From Chloroflexales bacterium ZM16-3 (GTDB lineage Bacteria > Chloroflexota > Chloroflexia > Chloroflexales > Chloroflexaceae), in contig RYFE02000008.1 of the NCBI GenBank assembly GCA_004138175.2, positions 62,001-126,000 on the forward strand: DNA of 64,000 nt. Reading direction: 5' to 3'. The stretch's first letter is position 1, and each line of letters opens with the position of its first letter. The notes beneath the pieces were generated by a model, which was not told the origin of the DNA, did no database searches, and saw nothing but the letters and a program-made list of their open reading frames with translations. The position numbers were made by a program, and so were the translations under genes. Below are positions 9,168 to 59,388 of the stretch, piece after piece.

Positions 9168-9488
9168 AAACCCTTTCCTCGGGAGATCCCTCGTGCAGAT
9201 TGCAGATGAGCCGCAGCCTATGCTGAGATCTTGTCTGGGTGCCAGTGGCAGATAATAGGGGCCATGATAAAATTTTTACAGCACGTTGTCAAGCCATTCG
9301 GCCTGTCCGTTACATGTGAGAGCAAGGTGTCAGGGGATTTCGGGTAAGACAAGGCTTCAGAGGGGCCGGTTTTACGTGACAGTTCGTAGTGGGCGCTTCA
9401 GCGCCCACTACGAACGCCGCAAACGGTAACGTATCCACAAACCTTGTCATACCGCAAAACTCGCCCGGTGCGGTATCGCCCAGCGGCA
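9168..9488. other. Intergenic region with hairpin and repeat remnants
   Basis: No gene is seen. A 16-bp inverted repeat (9382-9397 and 9400-9415) could terminate the radical SAM gene transcript, which ends at 9489. The stretch 9451-9478 contains ATACCGCAAAACTCGCC and GCGGTAT, the end motif of the MITE-like family described at 21571, 45672 and 62761. Confidence 0.55.
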
Positions 9489-10991
9489 TCAGCCGCCGGG
9501 CAACGTCACCTTGCCAGCCATCGCACCATACCAGTGCAACAGACGTAGCCCCTCAAGCCGCAGCACATCCGGGTAGAGGCTCTGGTAGATGCTACAGTTC
9601 GGCGAGCGAACATCATAGCGCCCGGTTGCGCGGTAGGTCGCCACAGCACATCCTCCAGCGCACCAGTACCGCCAGTCGCAGGTGCCGCAGCCCTCCTTTT
9701 CCTCAACGGGGAGGTTGCGCACGCCAACCTGGTCGAGCCTGATCAGGCCGAGCGGGTCGTCTGCGCGGATGTGGCCGACCGGCTGCTCAAGGGCCATCTG
9801 GCACGTGGCGACCTGGCCGTGATGGTCGATCACAAGGTAGTTCTCGCCGACCGCGCAGGTGCGCCGGTGGGCCTGCGAGAGGTCGGCGCGGTCGAGGAGC
9901 GCGCCGGTGAGGCTCCAGCGGGGCGGTCGCTGGGCGATCACGGCGTAGGCGCGGCGCATGCCCGCAATCAGGCGCTGCTCGTCGGCGCGCAGGTGGTCGA
10001 CCTCACCGGCGCGGCCATGGTCGCGGTAGAAGCTGATGCTGAAGGGCAGATCGCGGTCAAGCAGCCAGGCAACCAGCACGGGAAGCCCATCGACGCTGGC
10101 GCTGGTGACGGTGATCGCGATATCGGGGACGACCCCGGCTGCGATGGCGCGCTCGATACCGGCGATGGCGGCCCCGGAAGAACCGGCCCCGCCGATGCTT
10201 GGCCGGTTCGCATCGTTGTCGGCGGCCAGCCCGTCGAGCGAGATCATCAGGCGCAGCCCCAGGCTGGCGATGCGGGCCAGCTTGCGCGGCGTGAGGGCCG
10301 TGCCGTTGCTGAGCATCCCCGCGTGGAGAGTCAGCCCATGCAGCTCGGCCTGCGCCTGGGCATAGCGCTGCGTCTGCTCCACCACATCCATGTGCAGGCT
10401 GGCCTCGCCGCCAGCGTACTTGATCGCGATCTCGGAGTAGCCGTGTCGCAGGGCCGAGCGGATCACCGCGTCGATGGCCGCCTGGGCCGTGGCGGCGCTC
10501 ATCGACTCGCCGCTCTTCTGGATGTAGCAGTAGCTACAGCGCAGGTTGCAGGCGTTAGTCATATGCAGCCACGCCACCAGCACATTGGGGTCACCCGGCG
10601 CCGGGATACGGTCGTCGCCGTCGGTCAGCAGCCCCAGGCCGAAGAGCTGTTCGACTGCCTCCAGATCCTCGGCGCTGCCGCCCGCACCGAGCGGTAGCCG
10701 CTCCAGCAACTGGCACGCCTCCCGGTTAAGCACGGCGACCTGACTGAGCGATGGCACAAAGGCCACCTGATGCTGATCGTCCAGCGGCAAGGTGCGCAGC
10801 AGGGCGTGCGGGCGCAGCGTCTGCGCTGGCGGCATCGCCCGCCGGGCGCTTGGCCAGAAGGTGCGGCAGTCCTGAAGCGCCATCGTGCGGCAGTCGTGGT
10901 TGATGCCGATGCTTCGGCAGTCATTTAGTTGTGATAGACCTTCGCCGTCGGGTGGGTTGTTGTCGGAGCGATCCCAGATAACATCGATCAT
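9489..10991 (-). CDS. Radical SAM/SPASM peptide-maturase-like enzyme with N-terminal DCR repeats
   Basis: A 500-residue radical SAM enzyme. The core motif is CNLRCSYC (CxxxCxxC, residues 148-155), which binds the 4Fe-4S cluster that cleaves S-adenosylmethionine. The C-terminal SPASM region has the expected cysteines: CAVGENYLVIDHHGQVATC, then CGTCDWRYWCAGGC and a final C in RSPNCSIYQ, predicting two auxiliary clusters. This architecture is typical of RiPP-modifying and protein-modifying maturases. Residues about 60-120 may be a PqqD-like recognition region. Residues 24-43 contain three Asp-Cys-Arg motifs (DCRSIG, DCRTMA, DCRTFW) spaced 9 and 8 residues, not expected for the enzyme core. AAAGG lies ten bases before the ATG at 10991; an upstream GTG at 11012 lacks a ribosome site. 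It is the last gene of the STAND cluster, 103 bp after the preceding stop. Confidence 0.88.
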   Translation of the reverse strand: MIDVIWDRSDNNPPDGEGLSQLNDCRSIGINHDCRTMALQDCRTFWPSARRAMPPAQTLRPHALLRTLPLDDQHQVAFVPSLSQVAVLNREACQLLERLPLGAGGSAEDLEAVEQLFGLGLLTDGDDRIPAPGDPNVLVAWLHMTNACNLRCSYCYIQKSGESMSAATAQAAIDAVIRSALRHGYSEIAIKYAGGEASLHMDVVEQTQRYAQAQAELHGLTLHAGMLSNGTALTPRKLARIASLGLRLMISLDGLAADNDANRPSIGGAGSSGAAIAGIERAIAAGVVPDIAITVTSASVDGLPVLVAWLLDRDLPFSISFYRDHGRAGEVDHLRADEQRLIAGMRRAYAVIAQRPPRWSLTGALLDRADLSQAHRRTCAVGENYLVIDHHGQVATCQMALEQPVGHIRADDPLGLIRLDQVGVRNLPVEEKEGCGTCDWRYWCAGGCAVATYRATGRYDVRSPNCSIYQSLYPDVLRLEGLRLLHWYGAMAGKVTLPGG

Positions 10992-11094
10992 AGATAGCAT
11001 GCCTTTAGACACAATACCGCAAGCGGCACCCTGTTATACATTGGCGGAGCGCAGGGCCTCCCAGTGCGAAAAGCCCGCCTCCTGAAGCCTTGTC

Positions 11095-14085
11095 TCACAG
11101 CAGATCGTCGGGCGGGATGCCAAGCTCAATATCTTCGATCACCTCTTTGAAGAGGCGATCAATTGCAGCGAACGGCTCACCTGTCAGGTTCAGGCGTCGC
11201 GCCGACCAGTACGCCTCCTGGCGCTGCTCCTCAAGGGTGTTCACATCGCTGAGGGCGCGCATGTCGCGGCGGGCCAGAAAGCGCAGCACCCGCAGCTGGG
11301 GCGCCTGCGGCGAGTAGGCGTGCAGACAGGCGTAGGCGCGCACCAGCCGCGCCCCCCAGCTCGCTAAGTTGCCCTCGCTAAAGCGGCATATGGCGTACTG
11401 AAGCTCGATCTGCCCCAGCCGCAGCCAGTAGATCTTCTGCTCGCGTGTCTCCAGGGTATCGTTCAGGCCAATACCATTGTCGATGCGGTAGATCTCCGGC
11501 ACCGCAGCGCGGGCCAGATCCAGGTAGCGCTGCGCCTCAGCGTAGTTCTCCTCGTTCGCGTAGGTCACGCCGATATCTTCAAACAGGGCCGGCACGATCA
11601 GCCACTCGGTGTACTTCTCCGGAGGGCAGAGGTCGAGCGCCCGCTGGAAGTTGCGCCGGGCCTGATCCATATCGTCCTGCCAGGGCTCCTTGCGCTGGAA
11701 TCGGGCGAACCCTCGACTGCGGTAGGCGCAACCGAGGCTTTGGATAAACTCGATCTTGCGGATGATCTCGCCGCTGCCGAGCCCGGCGAACAAGGCCAGC
11801 GCCTCTTCATAGCGCATGATCGCTTGCTCGTACTCGGCCTCGCTGCGCGCCCGGTCGCGCCGCTGGCTGTAGGCGATTCGACGGCGGATGTTGCCCTCGT
11901 TCTGGGATGTCAGCGCCAGGTAGCGCTTGCTGTCCACATCGACGAAGATCTTGCGCGCCTCGCCCACCTCCTCCAGCGCCTCGCGCGCCCGGTCAAGCTG
12001 GAGCAGAATCCTCGCGCGCGTGTTCATGCTGGTGCCGATGCTGTGGAGCACCTCCAGCCGCCGGTAGATCCGCAGCGCCCCATCGACGAACGCCAGGCCG
12101 CGATCCAGCTCGCCCTGGATCGCCAGGGCATACCCGCAGTTGTTCAGTGTCTGGGCGCGCTGGAGATCGATCTCGGCACCTAGCGTGTGCTGGTAGACCA
12201 GGGCGCGCTTATAGTGTGCGATGGCCGTAGGCAGGTGCAGCCAGTTCCGTGAGTGGTAGCCCCAATTGGTGTAGGCCAAGCCAAGCAGCAAGCTAATCTG
12301 CTTGCGGCGGCTCGTTGCCAGCAGGCTCCCCTGCTGCTCGGCCTGCGCCTCCACCGCTAGCAGTTTCTCCATCTCGGCCACAATCTCGCGATAGCCAAGC
12401 TGAACCTCATCTTCGCGGTTGGCATAGTCGGGGTGGAAGAGCTTTACCTCAAGCTCGGCCACCACCAGATCGCAGCGGGCCAGCGGGTCGCTGTCGATGA
12501 TTGCTCCATAGTCGGCGCGGATCGCAGCCGCCGTCTGGAGAGCGCGCACATAGCGATTCCCGTCCTCGATATGGCTGGAGATACAGCGGTAGACCCAGCG
12601 CACCTGCTCCTCGTAGACGATCTGCTCCCAGCGCAGCCCGCTGCGCATCAGCTGGCTGCGGTAGTAGGCTCCCCAATCGGTGTGGTCGTCATAGAAGCGG
12701 GCCAGCTCGCTGCGCAGCATGGCGTCGAAGTCGTGGGCGTGACTGCCGATCGCGCTCACCGCAACCTCGCGATAGTCCTGGTAGCCGGCCAGCGGGTCGG
12801 TGTCGATGCACATACGGTAGAAGAGCCGCTCAGTCTGGATGCCCTGCTTCAGCGACATATGATACGGGTCGCCCCTGTCGCCAGGCTGATTGGGCCGGGC
12901 GATCTGTTCGTCTAGGTAGGCGATGGTCGCCTCGTACCATGTGCGGGCGTCCTTAAGCTGGCCGAGCTTGTCGAACAGCAGGTCGTACAGCTCATCGTGC
13001 AGGCTGATCACCCGCTCGCCAACCCACTTGGTGATCGGGAGATCGCCAAAGCTGGTGTACGCCTGCGTGATCCTATCTAGATCCTCCGGGCTCTCGCCCG
13101 CCGCCAGCCGACGCAGCAGGCCGATATCGAGCCCCTTGCGCAGGTAGAGCGCGCGGGTGAGCAGGTAGGCCCACTCGGGGCGCTTGATCGCAATCTCGTC
13201 AATGATCAGCTTCAGCAGCGCCTCGGTCAGCCGCGCGCTATTATCGGGGTAGCCAGCCTGTTCGGCCACCAGTTCGTCGGGGTCGAGCATACCGGCGCGC
13301 ACGCAGGCGATCGCGATCAGCAGCACAATTGGCCGCCCGCTCGACGCCCGATGGAGCACCTCACCCCAGGCGGCTAGCTCCGGCGCGGCCTTATGCACAA
13401 AGGCCGTGCTCTGCTCGGCAGTTAGCGCCCCGATCTCAAGCGCGATCAGCTTATCGCCCAGCACCTCGCTGAGCAGGTTGAGCTGCACAGCGCGCTTGCG
13501 TCCGGCGATAATGCTGATCGTGTTCGGCAGCTGCTTCAGGCTGTAAACCAGCCACTGCTCAAGCCGCCGGTTCGCGCGGAAGTTAAACCGCTCGATCTCG
13601 GTGGCAGTGATCGCGATCCGCTCGAAGGTGTCGATCGCGATCATGATCGGCTGCTCTGCGGCAATCGCTCGATAGCAGCCCAGAAATGCCCGTTCGATGC
13701 GCTGGGCGTGCTCATTCTCAGCTGAGGCGTCGGCCCCGATCACATTTCGGTAGGCTTGCAGCGCCTCGTCGAACGGGATGAAGCGCTGCTCCGCGATGCC
13801 CGCCTGGATCAGCCGGTCGCGCAGAGCGCGCATCAACATGATCGCCTGGTTGTAACGCACATCCTGGAGGTCGATCACCCCAGTGCAGCGGAAGGAGCGG
13901 GCCCCGGCGATTGTCTGGATCGTGTGGAGCAGGGATGTCTTCCCTACGCCACCCTCGCCATAGAAGTAGAGCACACGCGATCTGAACGGTACAGCGTCGA
14001 GCGCGGCTATCGCCGCGTCGATCTCACGCTCACGCCCGATCAGAACGCCGGGGTGCGGAAAAAACAGGCTGTCGAGGTCATCCAT
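11095..14085 (-). CDS. STAND-type P-loop NTPase with C-terminal TPR array (second large paralogue)
   Basis: A 996-residue cytosolic signalling ATPase. GREREIDAAIAALD at the N-terminus leads into the Walker A motif GEGGVGKTS (residues about 43-51) and a Walker B-like IMIAIDTFE (about 168). After the NTPase and winged-helix regions comes HDELYDLLFDKLGQ. The C-terminal half is helical with recognisable TPR units, e.g. NNCGYALAIQGELDRGLAFV and LEEVGEARKIF, ending in a helical cap. The order NTPase then TPR is that of STAND regulators and of the FxsT-like proteins that accompany radical SAM peptide systems. It is homologous along its length to the gene at 14147-17308 (for example the shared GCAYRSRG/GCTYRSHG segment). 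GAGAGGAG precedes the ATG by six bases. The 61-bp gap to the upstream gene suggests one operon. Confidence 0.87.
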   Translation of the reverse strand: MDDLDSLFFPHPGVLIGREREIDAAIAALDAVPFRSRVLYFYGEGGVGKTSLLHTIQTIAGARSFRCTGVIDLQDVRYNQAIMLMRALRDRLIQAGIAEQRFIPFDEALQAYRNVIGADASAENEHAQRIERAFLGCYRAIAAEQPIMIAIDTFERIAITATEIERFNFRANRRLEQWLVYSLKQLPNTISIIAGRKRAVQLNLLSEVLGDKLIALEIGALTAEQSTAFVHKAAPELAAWGEVLHRASSGRPIVLLIAIACVRAGMLDPDELVAEQAGYPDNSARLTEALLKLIIDEIAIKRPEWAYLLTRALYLRKGLDIGLLRRLAAGESPEDLDRITQAYTSFGDLPITKWVGERVISLHDELYDLLFDKLGQLKDARTWYEATIAYLDEQIARPNQPGDRGDPYHMSLKQGIQTERLFYRMCIDTDPLAGYQDYREVAVSAIGSHAHDFDAMLRSELARFYDDHTDWGAYYRSQLMRSGLRWEQIVYEEQVRWVYRCISSHIEDGNRYVRALQTAAAIRADYGAIIDSDPLARCDLVVAELEVKLFHPDYANREDEVQLGYREIVAEMEKLLAVEAQAEQQGSLLATSRRKQISLLLGLAYTNWGYHSRNWLHLPTAIAHYKRALVYQHTLGAEIDLQRAQTLNNCGYALAIQGELDRGLAFVDGALRIYRRLEVLHSIGTSMNTRARILLQLDRAREALEEVGEARKIFVDVDSKRYLALTSQNEGNIRRRIAYSQRRDRARSEAEYEQAIMRYEEALALFAGLGSGEIIRKIEFIQSLGCAYRSRGFARFQRKEPWQDDMDQARRNFQRALDLCPPEKYTEWLIVPALFEDIGVTYANEENYAEAQRYLDLARAAVPEIYRIDNGIGLNDTLETREQKIYWLRLGQIELQYAICRFSEGNLASWGARLVRAYACLHAYSPQAPQLRVLRFLARRDMRALSDVNTLEEQRQEAYWSARRLNLTGEPFAAIDRLFKEVIEDIELGIPPDDLL

Positions 14086-14146
14086 GCCCTACTCCTCTCA
14101 GCCACAACGATGTGGGTGCTGGTTTGGTCGGCCCCACGGCCAGCGA

Positions 14147-17100
14147 TTAGATCTCGCCGATGGAATCTGCCTCTAGATCATTAAATGCCTGATCGATCAG
14201 CCGCTCGGCAAGCCGCCGCGCCTCGCTATCTTCCAGCCGGTAGTCGCGGGACGCCTGATAGATCGCGGTTGCGATCAGCTTGATCTCTTTCTCGGTACGC
14301 TTCCGGCGTAGCTCGCGCAGAGTTAGGGCGTTCGCCCGCTCCAGCAACGACGATGAGTGGGCATACTGGAGGATGTAGGCGAGCATGAGGAGCAGATGGC
14401 GGCCGGCCTCCTGTAGGTCGGACGGGTCGCCCCGGCGGATGAGGGTGCGCTCGGCGCTCGCCCGGTTCCGCGTATAGATGCCATAGTCGTAGCAGCCGAA
14501 GCCAAGCATCATGCGCTGAATCTCGCACTGGGCCAGCTCGCGCCAGAACCCATAGACTGGCCGGCGCGTGCCGCGCAGCCCGATCATGCGCTCGAAGCGA
14601 TACTCGGCGGGGGCCAGCGCCTCGGCCCGCTGGAGATGAATCTCGACCCGCTCATCATACTCGTCCTGGTTCACATGAATGGTCGCCAGATCCTCGTGGA
14701 TGTCCATCACTATCAGCGCTGGTTGCCGCTTCTCGATGGCCAGATTCACCGCCCGCTCCAGCCAGTCGTGGGCCGCAGCAAAGTAGCTAGCGGCGCGATC
14801 CGGCTCCACCCCCCTGATATGCAGCGCCTGGCCGTGGCTACGGTAGGTGCAGCCAATGCCCTGGATCACCTCGCGCCGACGCTCGGCGCTGGTGATGCCC
14901 GCCTTGTCGAGCAGCTCATGTGCCTCCTTAAAGAGCGTCATGGCCGTCTCGAACGCCTGCTCCTGGCGGCTGATCATATAGCTGAGCTGCTCGGCCAGCT
15001 TGCGGTTGGCCTCGGCCAGCACCGGCAGGCAGAGGCTCATGCCGCGCGAGCTATGGTAGTGCCGAAAGATCTCGAGCGCCTGCTCGGCATACTCACGCGC
15101 CATGATGAACTGGCCGGCCCGGATCGAGATTCGAGCCAGGGTGTTGAGGCTGAGCGCCACGTTATAGGCACTGGCATAGCGCTGTCGAGAGTCAAGGCCC
15201 TCTAGAGCGAAGCGCCGGGCCTCGGCGACATTGCCCTGCTCAGAGTAGACATAGGCGATATTGTTGAGGGTCTCGCCGCGCAGCTGCGCGAGTGCTAGGT
15301 GGCTTCCGGTGCCGTACGCCAGAGCCTGGCGATACTCCTCCGTAGCATCGAAGAGGTCATAGGTCATGCGGTAGCTATACCCAGCGGCGTTATGAATTCG
15401 AGACTGTAGCATCCTTCGCCACTGATTACTAGTGGGGTTACTTGTCGTCTCAAACCTCCCCATGATCGCCCGCGCGGCCGCCAGCTCACGCTGGATTGCC
15501 TCGCGTTCTTCTGGACGGCGGTTGAGCAGCAGCTCAGCCACCGCCAGGTGCAGCAGCGCATAGTGTGCGCCGGAGGCACCGGCCTCATGCTCCCAGTAGA
15601 AGCCCAGCCGGTCGCGTAAACCCAGCCCCTCGGGATCTTCGTAATAGGTGGCCCGCAGCAGCCAGCGCGCGGCACACTCCACCTCTACGGCGAAGGGCAC
15701 CCCCCGGTCGAGGCGGTAGTGGCTGCGCAGCGCCTCCTGGCGCAGCATCACCCCGTAGCCCATCTCGCGGCGGACAATCGCCGCGTAGGATTGCATGTTG
15801 TACTCGGCCACGCCGCGCTCGCGGTCAAACTGGTAGTAGTAGCCCAGCCGGTCGAGCACCAGCATATCGCGGCGGCGGGCGTGATCCTGCTGGGCATGGT
15901 TAAGCGCCTCGGCCTCGGGGTGCTCCGGCCCCACCGTCAGCAGACGCTCCACGGCGGCGATTCTGGCGGTCTCGGCCGCGTCGATCGTGCGGTCGTACCA
16001 CTCGATCAGCGCTCGGCTCACGGCGGGGCGCAGCTGCACAGCCCCCGAGACATCGCTGTCGAGCCAGTGGTACAGCTCATCGTGCAGGAAGAGCAGCGTC
16101 TCCTCGCCAGCCACGCCGTCGAAGGTGTAGCGCGGCACGCTCCGCCGCTTGACGATCAGCAGCTGGCCCAGCCGCTCCGCCAGCGTCGTCGGGTTGTCGA
16201 TAGGGACGCCCTCGGCCTCGGCAATCGTTTGCAGCATCGCGTCCGACGCGCCCTTGCGGATAGTGGCCATCCACTGGAGCGCGAGGATCAGGATGTGATC
16301 ATTGGCGTCGATCTGGCTCAGGAAAGAGCGCATTGTCGCGTCGCGCAGCCGCTGCTGCGCCTGCCTGTCCAGCGTCGGCGACTCCCCGGCCCGGATCTGC
16401 TCGTGGATCTGGTCGACCTCGGTCGGCGTCACGCCAAACATCGTGCAGGTGAAGAGCATCGCGATCCAGAAAGGCAGGCCGCCCGAGATGCTATGCCAGA
16501 GCTGGAGGGTCTCGTCGTCGAGGTCGACTGCCTCAGTGAACTCGTGAATATCGGGCTGATGCACGTCGAGGAGCTTCTCGCGCAGGGCGCGCGCGAAGTC
16601 GTCGGCGGCCCCGCGATCCATCCCGTCGATGGGGATGTGCTGGGTGGGCATCTGGCCCCGCATGCGCTCGTACAGCTCCACCGGCTCCCCATAGAGCGTC
16701 TGCGGGCGCCCCGACAGGATCGCCACTGTGTTCTGGAGCTGTGGGAGCATCTCCTGGAGCCAGTGCTCGCCGCCGCCGTTTGCCGTCGGCGCCCGCTGGG
16801 CCATGCGCTGCTCGGCACCATCATAGAGGTTGACCGCCTGCTCGACCGAGTCGAACAGGAGCACGGCCGGCCTTTCGCCCTCGCCCTCGGCCAGCACGTT
16901 GTAGCAGGCGACAAATACCTGGCGCACATGCGCCTGCGCTTGCTCGAATGCCTGGCCGCTCTGCCGCGCGCTATCGAGCTGGCGCTGCGCCTCGCGGTAC
17001 GGCGCGAAGATCGCCTCCGTCGCGGGCCGCTGCGCGCTAAACAGCCGGATAATCGTCTCCTCAATCGCGCTGGCCTTAAAGCGGTCGATATGATAAAAAT

Positions 17101-17308
17101 CATAGATCGGCAGGTACAGGCGCTGCTGTGCTTCCAGCCGCTCTAAGAGCGCCTCAAGGATGCGTGTCTTGCCCGTGCCACCGTCGCCGGTGAGCAACAG
17201 GAGGGCGGGATGGTCGCTTCGGCTGGCCAGGGCCTTGTCTAGCTGATCAAGCAGGATGGCGCGCCCATAGATCTGCTTCGTGCGGATGGGAAGTTCAACC
17301 GGCGGCAT
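14147..17308 (-). CDS. STAND-type P-loop NTPase with C-terminal TPR array (first large paralogue)
   Basis: A 1053-residue predicted STAND ATPase. After the IYGRAILLDQLDKAL lead, Walker A is GDGGTGKTR (residues 41-49) and Walker B is AVLLFDSVEQ. A sensor-like segment TVAILSGRPQTLYG follows, matching TISIIAGRKRA in the next paralogue. HDELYHWLDSDV marks the end of the NTPase/winged-helix half. The C-terminal half contains TPR-like helices (NNIAYVYSEQGNVAEARRFA, SLNTLARISIRAGQFIMARE). The ATG at 17308 is chosen because GGAGAG lies six bases before it; the open frame extends 28 codons further upstream through a proline-rich, unlikely stretch. It sits between a small STAND gene and a second large paralogue, all in the same direction. 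Role unknown; sensing or scaffold function in a modification or defence system is inferred. Confidence 0.86.
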   Translation of the reverse strand: MPPVELPIRTKQIYGRAILLDQLDKALASRSDHPALLLLTGDGGTGKTRILEALLERLEAQQRLYLPIYDFYHIDRFKASAIEETIIRLFSAQRPATEAIFAPYREAQRQLDSARQSGQAFEQAQAHVRQVFVACYNVLAEGEGERPAVLLFDSVEQAVNLYDGAEQRMAQRAPTANGGGEHWLQEMLPQLQNTVAILSGRPQTLYGEPVELYERMRGQMPTQHIPIDGMDRGAADDFARALREKLLDVHQPDIHEFTEAVDLDDETLQLWHSISGGLPFWIAMLFTCTMFGVTPTEVDQIHEQIRAGESPTLDRQAQQRLRDATMRSFLSQIDANDHILILALQWMATIRKGASDAMLQTIAEAEGVPIDNPTTLAERLGQLLIVKRRSVPRYTFDGVAGEETLLFLHDELYHWLDSDVSGAVQLRPAVSRALIEWYDRTIDAAETARIAAVERLLTVGPEHPEAEALNHAQQDHARRRDMLVLDRLGYYYQFDRERGVAEYNMQSYAAIVRREMGYGVMLRQEALRSHYRLDRGVPFAVEVECAARWLLRATYYEDPEGLGLRDRLGFYWEHEAGASGAHYALLHLAVAELLLNRRPEEREAIQRELAAARAIMGRFETTSNPTSNQWRRMLQSRIHNAAGYSYRMTYDLFDATEEYRQALAYGTGSHLALAQLRGETLNNIAYVYSEQGNVAEARRFALEGLDSRQRYASAYNVALSLNTLARISIRAGQFIMAREYAEQALEIFRHYHSSRGMSLCLPVLAEANRKLAEQLSYMISRQEQAFETAMTLFKEAHELLDKAGITSAERRREVIQGIGCTYRSHGQALHIRGVEPDRAASYFAAAHDWLERAVNLAIEKRQPALIVMDIHEDLATIHVNQDEYDERVEIHLQRAEALAPAEYRFERMIGLRGTRRPVYGFWRELAQCEIQRMMLGFGCYDYGIYTRNRASAERTLIRRGDPSDLQEAGRHLLLMLAYILQYAHSSSLLERANALTLRELRRKRTEKEIKLIATAIYQASRDYRLEDSEARRLAERLIDQAFNDLEADSIGEI

Positions 17309-17465
17309 AGAGTCTCTCCGTCGTTTGAGGCTCCCGTGGAAGGAGGGGGGGAAGGGGCAGGGGCGAGGCGTCGGCCCCTGGTGGTGTGACATAAAAAGAG
17401 GCCTCCACGGGATATGTGGAAACCTCTACAATGGCAATCCAGGCGGCGCGTTCACAGGCGAACAT
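17295..17465 (-). CDS. Possible 56-residue leader or precursor peptide between STAND genes
   Basis: An ATG at 17465 is preceded by GAGGTGA at a close spacing and opens a 56-codon frame starting MFACERAAWIAIVEVSTYPV, with a Pro-rich C-terminal half, ending at a TGA that overlaps the start of the next STAND gene. A rho-independent terminator (17391-17426) lies inside the frame, so it may be a leader peptide, a RiPP-like precursor for the radical SAM enzyme, or chance. No similarity was recognised. Confidence 0.25.
   Translation of the reverse strand: MFACERAAWIAIVEVSTYPVEASFYVTPPGADASPLPLPPLLPREPQTTERLYAAG
17391..17426 (-). terminator. Rho-independent terminator between the small and large STAND genes
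   Basis: On the minus strand GAGGTTTCCAC pairs with GTGGAGGCCTC (11 bp with two G-U pairs) around a 7-nt loop, followed at once by TTTTTAT. This is a textbook intrinsic terminator about 85 bp after the stop of the small STAND gene and about 80 bp before the next start. It implies either separate transcription or attenuation within the cluster. Confidence 0.75.
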
Positions 17466-17511
17466 CTACTCACCTCTTCCTGCGGGCGGAAGGTGAGCTG
17501 TGGCGCGATCA

Positions 17512-18951
17512 CTATTTCAGGGCAGCTACGTTGGGCCATCGGTCGCTCCCGTGTAACAGGGGTGCTTCCAGGGCCTCGTCGATGAGGCGGATAAACAGGT
17601 TCTTTTCGAGGTTGCGGCTGCTCAGGAGCATCGTCAGTTCAGTATCCTGTAGGAAGCGCGCGCGCAGCTGATGCAACTCCGCATCATCACGGTAGCGACC
17701 ATCTGGGCTGTAGTAGTAGGTGCGGATGATCTGCCTTAAACGATCCTCGATGGTTTTTTCATTATATAGAGTAGGTTCGCCTTTGTAAAGGGAATGGTAG
17801 AAAAACTCCACGATATACATATTCCGATTCCCCGGCACTTCGCGGATGAGCTGCTCGTAGTAGCTCATCGCCGCATCGCAGATCCGCGCATAGTGCTCAG
17901 GATCATCGAGAGACAGTGCGCGAGTGAAGATCTTACGCATTGTCTGGTCGAGCTGGTAGGCACGGCTATGATCGCTCCACTCAAGCAGCCGTGTGTCGAG
18001 AAGCTGCTTGATCGAGAGCAGGAGCGCCGAGTCGCTGCGGTTTTTGAACCCTGGGTAGAACTGCGGCAGGACCGTGCGCAGGGTATGGATGTCGAACTCA
18101 CGAAAGAGCGCGATCACAGGGAAGATCTGGCTAAGCTCTTCGGAGACGCCGCCCTCCACCCGGTTGTAGATCTTGCGCACCACCATCGCTGCCAAATCGG
18201 CGCGGCGCTGCTCGACAATCTGGAGCAGCTCCGGTGCTGATCCGCCGGGCTGCACAACCTCGCGGTAGATCGCTTCGTTTGCCAGCGGGTGCCCAAAGGT
18301 GATCGCATAGATCTCCTTCCCCACATCGCCATTCTGGCTGATCTGCGCGGATGTGGCTGCGATATCGAAGGCCGTGAGCGGCTCGGCCTTGACCCGTCGG
18401 CGCACTTCGAACTGACGCCAGCGCAGCGGCGCCTGGCTACCCAGGATGCAGAGCAGGTGCGCGTCGCGCATGAGCGGCAGGAGCAAGGATCGCTCCACCC
18501 AGGCGAACAGCGCCTCGGGCACGCTCTCCCAGGAGTCGAGGACGAGCAGGATCGGGCGGTTTTGTGTGTTCAGGCTGACCACCAGAGCCTGAAGCGCATG
18601 GTTGATCATGGGCTCATCGCTTGTCTCGGAGAGCTCCTCCAGCGTATTACCGAGATCGCTCGCCAGATCGGCCGCGTATCCCATGAAGCATTTGAGGAAG
18701 CGAACCTTCGCGGGCTGAAGCTCTTGTCCAAGCCAGTCGACGCTAAAGCCGATGCTAATCAGGCGCTTTTCGTGCTGCTGGGTCGCCAGCATCTCAGCGA
18801 GCAGGGCTGTCTTCCCGATCCCAGGAACGCCGTAGATGTTTATGATGCACTGGATGACCGGGAGGGAATGCAACAGGTCGTGGAGACGTTGGGCGATCAG
18901 GCCAGTCACAGAAGGACGATCAACAAAATGGCGCGCGCGCTGTAGCTTCAT
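17512..18951 (-). CDS. Short STAND-type P-loop NTPase lacking TPR tail
   Basis: A 479-residue P-loop NTPase. Walker A is GVPGIGKTA (residues 41-49) and Walker B is PILLVLDSWE. The C-terminal about 200 residues are helical, with LLDTRLLEWSDHSRAYQLDQ corresponding to the winged-helix end of the two larger paralogues, but no TPR array follows. The open frame continues upstream to 19392, yet that part is compositionally poor and contains no domain; AGAGAGAC lies six bases before the ATG at 18951, which is therefore chosen. It is the first gene of the STAND/radical SAM cluster and faces the CrtO gene divergently across a 900-bp gap. Exact function is unknown. Confidence 0.83.
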   Translation of the reverse strand: MKLQRARHFVDRPSVTGLIAQRLHDLLHSLPVIQCIINIYGVPGIGKTALLAEMLATQQHEKRLISIGFSVDWLGQELQPAKVRFLKCFMGYAADLASDLGNTLEELSETSDEPMINHALQALVVSLNTQNRPILLVLDSWESVPEALFAWVERSLLLPLMRDAHLLCILGSQAPLRWRQFEVRRRVKAEPLTAFDIAATSAQISQNGDVGKEIYAITFGHPLANEAIYREVVQPGGSAPELLQIVEQRRADLAAMVVRKIYNRVEGGVSEELSQIFPVIALFREFDIHTLRTVLPQFYPGFKNRSDSALLLSIKQLLDTRLLEWSDHSRAYQLDQTMRKIFTRALSLDDPEHYARICDAAMSYYEQLIREVPGNRNMYIVEFFYHSLYKGEPTLYNEKTIEDRLRQIIRTYYYSPDGRYRDDAELHQLRARFLQDTELTMLLSSRNLEKNLFIRLIDEALEAPLLHGSDRWPNVAALK

Positions 18952-57419: not shown

Positions 57420-57423
57420 TGTG

Positions 57424-57463
57424 ATTGGAGATTGGAGGTTGCGCGCAACCTCCAATCTCCAAT
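57424..57463. terminator. 40-bp perfect palindrome after the ABC-F gene
   Basis: ATTGGAGATTGGAGGTTGCG is followed directly by its exact reverse complement, starting six bases after the ABC-F stop. It is a variant of the AATCTGC-type repeats and could end the upstream transcript. Confidence 0.75.
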
Positions 57464-57477
57464 TCCGCCCGACGGTG

Positions 57478-57483
57478 TATACT
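57478..57483 (+). promoter_or_regulatory. Candidate -10 (TATACT) giving a leaderless transcript
   Basis: TATACT ends seven bases before the ATG at 57490, so transcription should begin at or next to the start codon. No ribosome site precedes the ATG. No clear -35 is seen. Confidence 0.4.
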
Positions 57484-57489
57484 TTACGC

Positions 57490-59388
57490 ATGAGCACACC
57501 GCAAGCCAGCGCCCGCCCCGAGCCGAAGCCCGCCGGCGATGGCGCCACCTACGAGCTGCGCAACTACCGCCTTCACGAGCGCGTGGGCCAGGAGGAGCTG
57601 GCGACCGTCTATCGGGCCAGCCACATGACCCTCGACCGCCCCGTGCAGGTACACATCCTGCGTCGCCACGACTGGATCTCGGCCAGCCGGTTTCAGCTGG
57701 CCGGGCGCCTCGCCGCGCGCCTCGCCCACCCCAGCCTGCTCCCGGTGATCGACGCTGGCCACGATGATAAGTACGGCGATTACTTAGTGACCCCGCAGAT
57801 CGATGCGCGGCCCCTCGCCGCGCTGCTCGCCGATGGCCCGCAGGACGCCATGCTCACCGTGCGGGTGATCGCCCAGGTGGCCACAGCCCTCGACTACCTC
57901 CACGCCGAGCAGGTCTTCCACCGCGATGTGCAGCCGGCTAACATCCTGGTCAGCCCGCAGGGCGCGGCCTACATGGCCAACCTGAGCCTGGCCGCCAGCC
58001 CCGACACGCCCGACCTGAGCAAGATCGATGAGGCCGACTACCTGACGCCCTACTCGGCCCCCGAGCAGCGCCTCTCGCAGGGCGAGGCGGGCGCCGTCCT
58101 CGATGTCTACAGCCTTGGGGCCGTGGCCTACCATATGCTCAGCGGCGAGGTGCCGCCCGCCCCCGGAGGCGAGGTGCCTAGCCTGGCCTCGCGTGACCCC
58201 AGCCTCGCCCCGGCAGACCGGGTGGTGCGGCGGATGCTGGCCGCCCAGCCCGCCGCCCGATTCCCCAGCGCCGGGGCCGCCGCCGCCGCCCTGCGCCAGG
58301 CCCTCCGCGCCCAGATCGACCTCGCCACAAACGACATGGAGGAGTCGCGCTGGGAGGCCAGCGCCGAGTGGCTGGAGAACCCCCTGGAGACGGCCCTCGG
58401 CAGCCAGCTCGACGAGGCATTTAAAGAGTTCCTCGCCCGCTCGCGCAAGCGAGCCGACGACCTGCACCGCCGCGATGTCATCCGCCGCCTGCTCAGCCGC
58501 TGGAGCCGCGACGGCTTCTTCCGCCGCCGCGCCCTTGGCCAGCTCGTCCAGCCTGAGCAGATCGTCAGCTACAACGTCTACTTCTATGCGCTGCGCACCC
58601 TCTACGAGACGCGCAGCGCCCCGCAGCGCCGCACCCGCCCTCAGAAGCCCGACGACCGCAGCTCCGCCCAGATCATCCCCGATGTCTGGGGCGTCGAGCC
58701 GCCCGCCGCCGGCCCCTTCGAGACGGTGAAGCCCCGAGAGCTCGTCCTGCCCAACTCAACCCGCGTCATCACATGCCCCGACTGTAGCGGCACCAGCGAG
58801 ATCCCCTGCAAAGAGTGCCAGGGCAAGGGCATGGTCGAGAAGCTGCACAAGGTGAGCAACCCCAATAACACAGTCACGAACGAGAAGCTCGCTGTCACCT
58901 GTCCGTCCTGCCGGGGCTACGGCCAGTCGAAGTGCCAGAACTGCGCGGGCACCGGCAACATCGTCGAGGAGCAGGTCTTCACCTACGCCCGCCGGGCCAA
59001 AGAGTGGAACAACAGTGATGATATTGAGGACCTGCCGGAGCTGGCGATCAAGCGGCGGCTGGAGCCGGTCTTCAGCGCGCCGATCACGCCCTACGAGGGC
59101 CGCTGGCACAGCGTGGCGCCGCTGGCCGAGCTGCTGCGCGCCTCGATCGCCGAGGCGGGCGAGGACACCCGCCTCTCCTCTGCCGAGCTGAAGATCCAGG
59201 GCGCGACGATCACCGAGATGGACTTCCTGCTTGATGAGCAGACCCAGCGGCTCTACTTCGTCGGCTTCGATAACGAGCTGGTCGGCGACTGGTCACTGCT
59301 CAACCCCGAGCGTCTCGCCCTCGCCGCCGTGTCCGCCGCGCTCCTGCTGATCGCGCTGATCGCTGTGGCCGTCTTCTTCCTTGGTTAA
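57490..59388 (+). CDS. Pseudokinase-like Ser/Thr kinase domain with DnaJ-type zinc region and C-terminal membrane anchor
   Basis: A 632-residue protein. Residues about 25-280 are a Hanks-type kinase fold: ERVGQEELATVYRASH (glycine-loop position), VFHRDVQPANILV (catalytic loop, HRD and Asn kept), YSAPEQRLSQGEAGAVLDVYSLG (APE region). However the VAIK lysine is His55 in VQVHIL, and DFG is replaced by ANL (163-165), so normal ATP/Mg binding is doubtful. A helical middle follows. Residues about 429-497 hold four CxxCxG-type repeats (CPDCSG, CKECQG, CPSCRG, CQNCAG), the DnaJ cysteine-rich zinc pattern. A single membrane helix ends the protein (AALLLIALIAVAVFFLG). The kinase part should be cytosolic. 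Start ATG at 57490; upstream in-frame codons cross a palindrome. Confidence 0.85.
   Translation: MSTPQASARPEPKPAGDGATYELRNYRLHERVGQEELATVYRASHMTLDRPVQVHILRRHDWISASRFQLAGRLAARLAHPSLLPVIDAGHDDKYGDYLVTPQIDARPLAALLADGPQDAMLTVRVIAQVATALDYLHAEQVFHRDVQPANILVSPQGAAYMANLSLAASPDTPDLSKIDEADYLTPYSAPEQRLSQGEAGAVLDVYSLGAVAYHMLSGEVPPAPGGEVPSLASRDPSLAPADRVVRRMLAAQPAARFPSAGAAAAALRQALRAQIDLATNDMEESRWEASAEWLENPLETALGSQLDEAFKEFLARSRKRADDLHRRDVIRRLLSRWSRDGFFRRRALGQLVQPEQIVSYNVYFYALRTLYETRSAPQRRTRPQKPDDRSSAQIIPDVWGVEPPAAGPFETVKPRELVLPNSTRVITCPDCSGTSEIPCKECQGKGMVEKLHKVSNPNNTVTNEKLAVTCPSCRGYGQSKCQNCAGTGNIVEEQVFTYARRAKEWNNSDDIEDLPELAIKRRLEPVFSAPITPYEGRWHSVAPLAELLRASIAEAGEDTRLSSAELKIQGATITEMDFLLDEQTQRLYFVGFDNELVGDWSLLNPERLALAAVSAALLLIALIAVAVFFLG

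Follow-up and report, generated by a model that had tools for sequence, protein, structure and literature searches.

A STAND-linked radical SAM/SPASM enzyme of Chloroflexota with a probable Asp-Cys target peptide of its own

FxSxx peptides are processed by SPASM-type radical SAM enzymes in systems that also include AP-ATPase-TPR (FxsT) proteins (Kaur et al. 2020, PMC7159879). In these FxSxx-COOH systems, which occur in multicellular bacteria and are predicted to act in conflict, the maturase FxsB is coupled to a TPR-bearing NTPase of the STAND class (PMC7159879). NTPase switches of the STAND class are also described in conflict systems with CHAT, TIR and EAD effectors (PMC7159879, PMC8195603). 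Among peptide maturases, PapB cross-links Cys thiols to carbons of Asp or Glu with loose sequence demands; it did not accept the transposed order, with Asp ahead of Cys (PMC9413430). In the fungal borosins (OphMA) the precursor is fused to the modifying enzyme, which modifies itself (PMC8429565), and these were the one precedent met in the literature searched for a fusion of precursor and enzyme.

The locus described here lies in a 64,000-nucleotide stretch of DNA (the window, meaning the whole stretch that was analysed) on contig 106 of the 6.27-Mb genome of Chloroflexales bacterium ZM16-3 (G000). ORF and Pfam readings place four genes on the minus strand in the order NT3, NT2, NT1 and radical SAM/SPASM gene. 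Their positions, order and shared strand agree with a preliminary description of this DNA, as does the gap of about 900 bp that separates the cluster from a divergent CrtO-like gene. The features of the locus, with the evidence for each, are as follows.

17512..18951, minus strand: NT3, short P-loop NTPase of 479 aa without TPRs, Walker A GVPGIGKT (ORF, Pfam; orthologues or analogues at the same position in many loci)
17397..17427, minus strand: hairpin and T-run between NT3 and NT2, terminator- or attenuator-like (scan, conservation in L031 and L032, folding energy)
14147..17308, minus strand: NT2, STAND-TPR protein of 1053 aa, AAA_16 and TPR_12 (ORF, Pfam, alignment; start codon conserved)
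11095..14085, minus strand: NT1, STAND-TPR protein of 996 aa with P-loop, lid/wHTH and long TPR superhelix (ORF, Pfam, AlphaFold2, fold matches)
9489..10991 (ORF open to 11012), minus strand: radical SAM/SPASM enzyme of 500 aa with N-terminal tail and RRE-like domain (Pfam, alignment, AlphaFold2, fold matches)
10854..10922, minus strand: putative fused precursor-like Asp-Cys segment DCRSIGINHDCRTMALQDCRTFW, inside the disordered residues 1-49 of the enzyme (family comparison, AlphaFold2)
10629..10808, minus strand: RRE-like (PqqD-like) segment, enzyme residues 62-121 (bbb-aa order in the model; CteB alignment from residue 63)
9594..9857, minus strand: SPASM region, C379 to C466 of the enzyme (invariant or nearly invariant cysteines in the family alignment)

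The start of the radical SAM gene is most likely the ATG at 10991, because the beginning MID[VI]IWD is conserved in two sister species (L031 and L032). The 203-bp gap between NT3 and NT2 contains the terminator-like hairpin (17397-17427; dG -21.1, z -4.0), and this hairpin and its T-run are near-identical in the same two species, while the flanks diverge. A simple four-gene transcript is therefore doubtful, and NT3 may have its own transcript or be attenuated. The proposal that the four genes form one locus is supported by the conserved neighbourhood and co-inheritance described below, with the reservation that the hairpin may set the NT3 transcript apart. A 30-nt inverted repeat (77%) flanks the radical SAM gene, one arm lying just past the NT1 stop (11069-11098) and the other past the enzyme stop (9344-9373). 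No tRNA or Rfam genes were found in the window.

Pfam assigned Radical_SAM to the enzyme, TPR_12 to NT1 and NT2, and AAA_16 to all three NTPases, in NT3 below the cut-off. From its sequence and its model, the enzyme reads as a radical SAM/SPASM peptide maturase, with the CxxxCxxC motif, SPASM cysteines and an RRE (PqqD-like) domain. In a family alignment, C148, C152 and C155 (CxxxCxxC) and C379, C397, C435, C438, C444 and C466 are invariant in 35 sequences, and C448 is nearly so. AlphaFold2 (pLDDT 85, pTM 0.86) predicts disorder for residues 1-49, followed by the RRE-like domain (62-121) and the radical SAM/SPASM core; the RRE-like domain is missing in three short homologues. The closest solved fold is CteB (5why; Z 30.4 over enzyme residues 63-482), which also ranked first by Foldseek and by sequence profile. 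CteB is a SCIFF maturase, a peptide maturase that forms thioethers. Ranking against curated families placed PapB first, followed by nif11, geopeptide, DynA, QhpD and SCIFF, all far under cut-off (for PapB, NF047865 of NCBIfam, 118.5 bits against 340; for the SCIFF maturase, TIGR03974, 72.5 bits against 425). The enzyme thus resembles PapB and CteB (ranthipeptide and SCIFF maturases) in the CteB fold, in the order of RRE, radical SAM and SPASM, and in the cysteines and acidic residues of its likely substrate. However, it differs from them in scoring far below the family cut-offs, in having its likely substrate in cis, in acid-Cys pairs in place of CX3D, and in its STAND partners.

The FxSxx systems had been put forward as an analogy, and in outline this stands, as the module too pairs a SPASM-type maturase with a TPR-containing, STAND-class NTPase in multicellular bacteria. 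There are differences in detail. The FxsB family (TIGR04269) matched the enzyme more weakly than PapB and was not among its 25 best families, which places its score under about 49 bits; PapB, nif11, QhpD and CteB-type enzymes are all better matches. The small ORFs that lie within 1.5 kb of the enzyme on its own strand, 386 in all, include a single one ending in FxSxx, taken to be a chance ORF, and no zincin-like peptidase gene was noticed among the annotated neighbours, whose annotation is partial. The module here also has a short NTPase in addition and its precursor-like motif is fused to the enzyme. It resembles the FxsB/FxsT-type systems, and no more than a resemblance is claimed.

The preliminary description called for a search of conserved neighbourhoods. 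The search for the enzyme's relatives covered 61 near genomes, 400 genomes of the phylum (44 matching at E 1e-60) and a named collection (matches listed). About 69 Chloroflexota loci were collected and compared (36 near, 25 from the phylum and 8 named ones among the matches listed), together with at least one in a cyanobacterium, again among the matches listed, which under-sample lineages other than Chloroflexota; the nearest named relatives among these were Chloroflexota. A STAND-TPR gene of one family was found beside the enzyme, or at most two genes from it, in 62 of 64 informative loci (five cut by contig ends were left out), a figure that counts loci and not independent events, with a few genomes appearing twice. 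The other two, L042 and L193, are orphan enzymes that lack an adjacent STAND gene and keep the tail; the genome of L042 has a STAND orthologue (78% identical) on another contig. The gap between enzyme and STAND gene is 215 bp or less in 34 of the 40 loci with full-length genes, and enzyme and STAND trees of these 40 loci have 18 of 37 splits in common. A Mantel test of tree congruence gave a modest value (0.24 against a null maximum of 0.20), and it is the comparison of paralogues, not this value, that carries the claim of co-inheritance. In two-copy genomes, the nearest relatives of each enzyme and of its STAND partner match in both trees (the window copy with L031 and L032; the second G000 copy with L192, L194 and L195; L062 with L041; L063 with L049). 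Because paralogous copies keep matching relatives in both trees, the enzyme and STAND-TPR pair is, to judge from the sequences, inherited as a unit.

It might be considered that unrelated genes came together by chance in islands rich in defence genes, given that the window genome has many genes of the CHAT type and the like. This is extremely improbable, being contradicted by the linkage in 62 of 64 loci, the short gaps, the shared splits and the matched partners of the paralogues. The set of three STAND genes with one SPASM enzyme, which the preliminary description had found unfamiliar, is not a constant one: the number of STAND genes varies, and most relatives have one STAND-TPR gene and one short NTPase gene, the latter often upstream. 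A search for carriage on plasmids or phages returned only distant radical SAM proteins. The second STAND-TPR and radical SAM pair of G000 (contig 43, L059 9458-14489) is divergent and has a CHAT-AAA gene upstream.

The homology of the two large NTPase-TPR proteins, as first described, was evident on alignment: NT1 and NT2 share 24% identity (E 7e-31) across nearly their full length, and NT3 has the P-loop region alone in common with them. NT1 was modelled by AlphaFold2 (pLDDT 87) as an NTPase with a lid/wHTH and a long TPR superhelix, and its best Foldseek match was a solved STAND-TPR protein (6mfv). By sequence and model NT1 is thus a STAND protein, with Walker A and B motifs, a helical lid with wHTH, and repeats; the repeats are lacking in NT3. 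G46, G48 and K49 of the P-loop and D152 of Walker B are invariant in 30 STAND-TPR proteins. The TPR part of NT1 resembles the peptide receptors Rap and NprR (Z about 20-25), although such helical repeats match widely. In L191 (7737-12251) an NT3-like part and a STAND-TPR part form one polypeptide with two P-loop domains, and L070 (4646-9406) encodes a long protein with two NTPase (AAA_16/AAA_22) stretches and TPRs. These fused forms suggest that the short NTPase and the STAND-TPR protein work in one complex. A STAND-TPR protein with a periplasmic binding domain of the sugar type (Peripla_BP_4) inserted near the P-loop, giving it the look of a small-molecule sensor, was seen in L063 (9335-13201).

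Ahead of its RRE-like domain the window enzyme has the tail NDCRSIGINHDCRTMALQDCR, with the motifs NDCR...HDCR...QDCR. Tails elsewhere in the family contain TDCDCACP, ETDCACP and NEC or DEC forms, with GQCDCS four times in L051 and GDCACDSP twice in L193. A D-C dipeptide is present in the N-terminal extension of 50 of 54 non-redundant enzymes, against a mean of 5.9 and a maximum of 12 in whole-protein shuffles. An acid-Cys pair (D-C or E-C) is found in 53 of the 54, with two or more copies in 37, and cysteine makes up 5.2% of the tail against 0.8% of the next 85 residues. As a control, 7 of 29 other radical SAM-like ORFs contained an acid-Cys pair, none of them repeated as in the family tails. 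Genes in the relatives were called as longest ORFs. Third-position bias indicates that the tail codes for protein. It evolves fast, with 217 nonsynonymous to 119 synonymous codon differences against 591 to 1027 in the core, and the motif is retained. The sole family enzyme read without an acid-Cys tail is L186 (G172), whose start was perhaps misread or whose tail was lost.

Mapping of short ORFs, which had been proposed together with the neighbourhood search, was run near the enzymes, and these small ORFs yielded no conserved precursor family beyond close relatives. The repetition of the motif, the disorder, the fast evolution with the motif kept and this want of a separate precursor ORF all point the same way: from sequence and model, the tail looks like a precursor core that has become part of its maturase. 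The three enzymes that lack the RRE-like domain still have the motif directly before the barrel, which fits a tethered substrate. As read from the genes, the repeated, core-like motif is covalently part of the enzyme, as is the precursor in borosins, and self-modification may be common to both. In contrast, borosins are methyltransferases with a different chemistry and no STAND partner. The literature searched, outside which most subscription journals lie, contained no radical SAM maturase joined in cis to its substrate, and a STAND-linked radical enzyme with a putative Asp-Cys target peptide of its own at the N-terminus was likewise not met there.

Two other roles for the tail have to be weighed, both unlikely and about equally so. 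The tail could bind an extra Fe-S cluster, or be a redox switch that regulates the enzyme, with the real substrate elsewhere. The enzyme is itself an Fe-S protein and many members are Cys-rich in this part (DCDCACP); however, six family loci have a single tail cysteine (L033, L035, L036, L037, L038 and L042), copy number and spacing of the motif vary freely, and the tail is predicted to be disordered. This is poor for a conserved metal site, which the single cysteines and variable spacing make less likely. Alternatively, the enzyme could act in trans, modifying its STAND partner or some other protein, the tail being a regulatory pseudosubstrate. Its near-invariant pairing with STAND-TPR genes would suit this, as would the presence among its best matches of the QhpD family; QhpD modifies a protein subunit. 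Yet a scan of plus-strand frames of the family loci found the Cys motif to recur only in the enzyme tail and not in the STAND genes, and the orphan enzymes keep their tail with no STAND gene adjacent.

A SPASM maturase with its substrate in cis, co-inherited with STAND switches that read the modified tail and forming a conflict module, is the reading that we prefer and consider somewhat more probable than otherwise. The enzyme would modify the cysteines of its own disordered, repeated Asp/Glu-Cys N-terminal tail, most likely through radical formation of thioether cross-links as in PapB and CteB. Acid before cysteine, the arrangement in the family tails, was not accepted by PapB, and in several tails a lone cysteine has no acid close downstream; the chemistry, and with it the bond formed, may therefore be another. 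Once modified, the tail would be read, in place or after cleavage, by the STAND-TPR proteins through a TPR superhelix of the peptide-binding type, the NTPase domain serving as an oligomerising switch that the modified tail could either turn on or hold off. This switch would feed CHAT, caspase, trypsin, TIR/SIR2 or phosphorylase effectors in related loci, and the module would most likely be a stress- or invader-triggered conflict (cell-death) system. The earlier view of STAND proteins and a peptide-modifying SPASM enzyme as a unit is well supported by neighbourhood and co-inheritance, with the difference that the likely substrate is the fused Asp-Cys tail and not a separate peptide or a partner.

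The module hints that conflict systems of bacteria use a modified-peptide signal of a new kind. If the preferred reading is true, bacterial STAND systems in many Chloroflexota families can take modified peptides as input or yield them as output, and radical thioether chemistry would have an enzyme-tethered system that does without a separate leader peptide. A further idea, possible though on balance doubtful, is a new class of cis-acting RiPP system in which the activity state of the enzyme (iron-sulfur, SAM, oxygen) is written on the Asp-Cys tail and read by STAND-TPR guards that release CHAT/TIR/protease effectors when the tail is wrong. Such reading of an activity state would make the module a guard of redox state or of enzyme integrity within the immunity of bacteria.

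Neighbours of the related loci, as far as their partial annotation goes, include CHAT near or inside the clusters (L031, L049, L054 with EAD7, L059 and L184), caspase C14 (L069), Trypsin_2 (L045 and L057), a nucleoside phosphorylase (L185), and TIR and SIR2 (L180, L181 and L182). These genes favour a conflict or cell-death role for the module and, by analogy, for the window copy. At the window locus itself neither an effector nor a leader peptidase gene is adjacent; its nearest CHAT and NACHT genes, which adjoin the cluster in two sister species, are separated from it by about 36 kb of the same contig. The domains are of the same kinds as the effectors of STAND conflict systems, although the most constant partner here is a radical SAM enzyme. 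PADLOC returned no matching system, only weak matches to viperin, which come from the generic core shared by radical SAM enzymes. In L180 (12856-14313) and L181 (4371-5768), SIR2-like and TIR domains occur in one protein adjoining the module.

We attach little probability to the reading of the locus as an ordinary RiPP cluster whose product is a secreted peptide and whose STAND and ATPase-wHTH proteins regulate transcription in the manner of MalT. The NTPase region of MalT does align to NT1 (Z 22.1), and ATPase genes with Trans_reg_C-like C-termini often precede the related clusters. However, the neighbour clusters, as far as annotated, show no recurring transporter and no recurring dedicated leader peptidase; the domains that do recur are CHAT, caspase, TIR and SIR2. 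Elsewhere in the window (57421-59388), a protein kinase domain is fused to a DnaJ-type Cys-rich zinc region.
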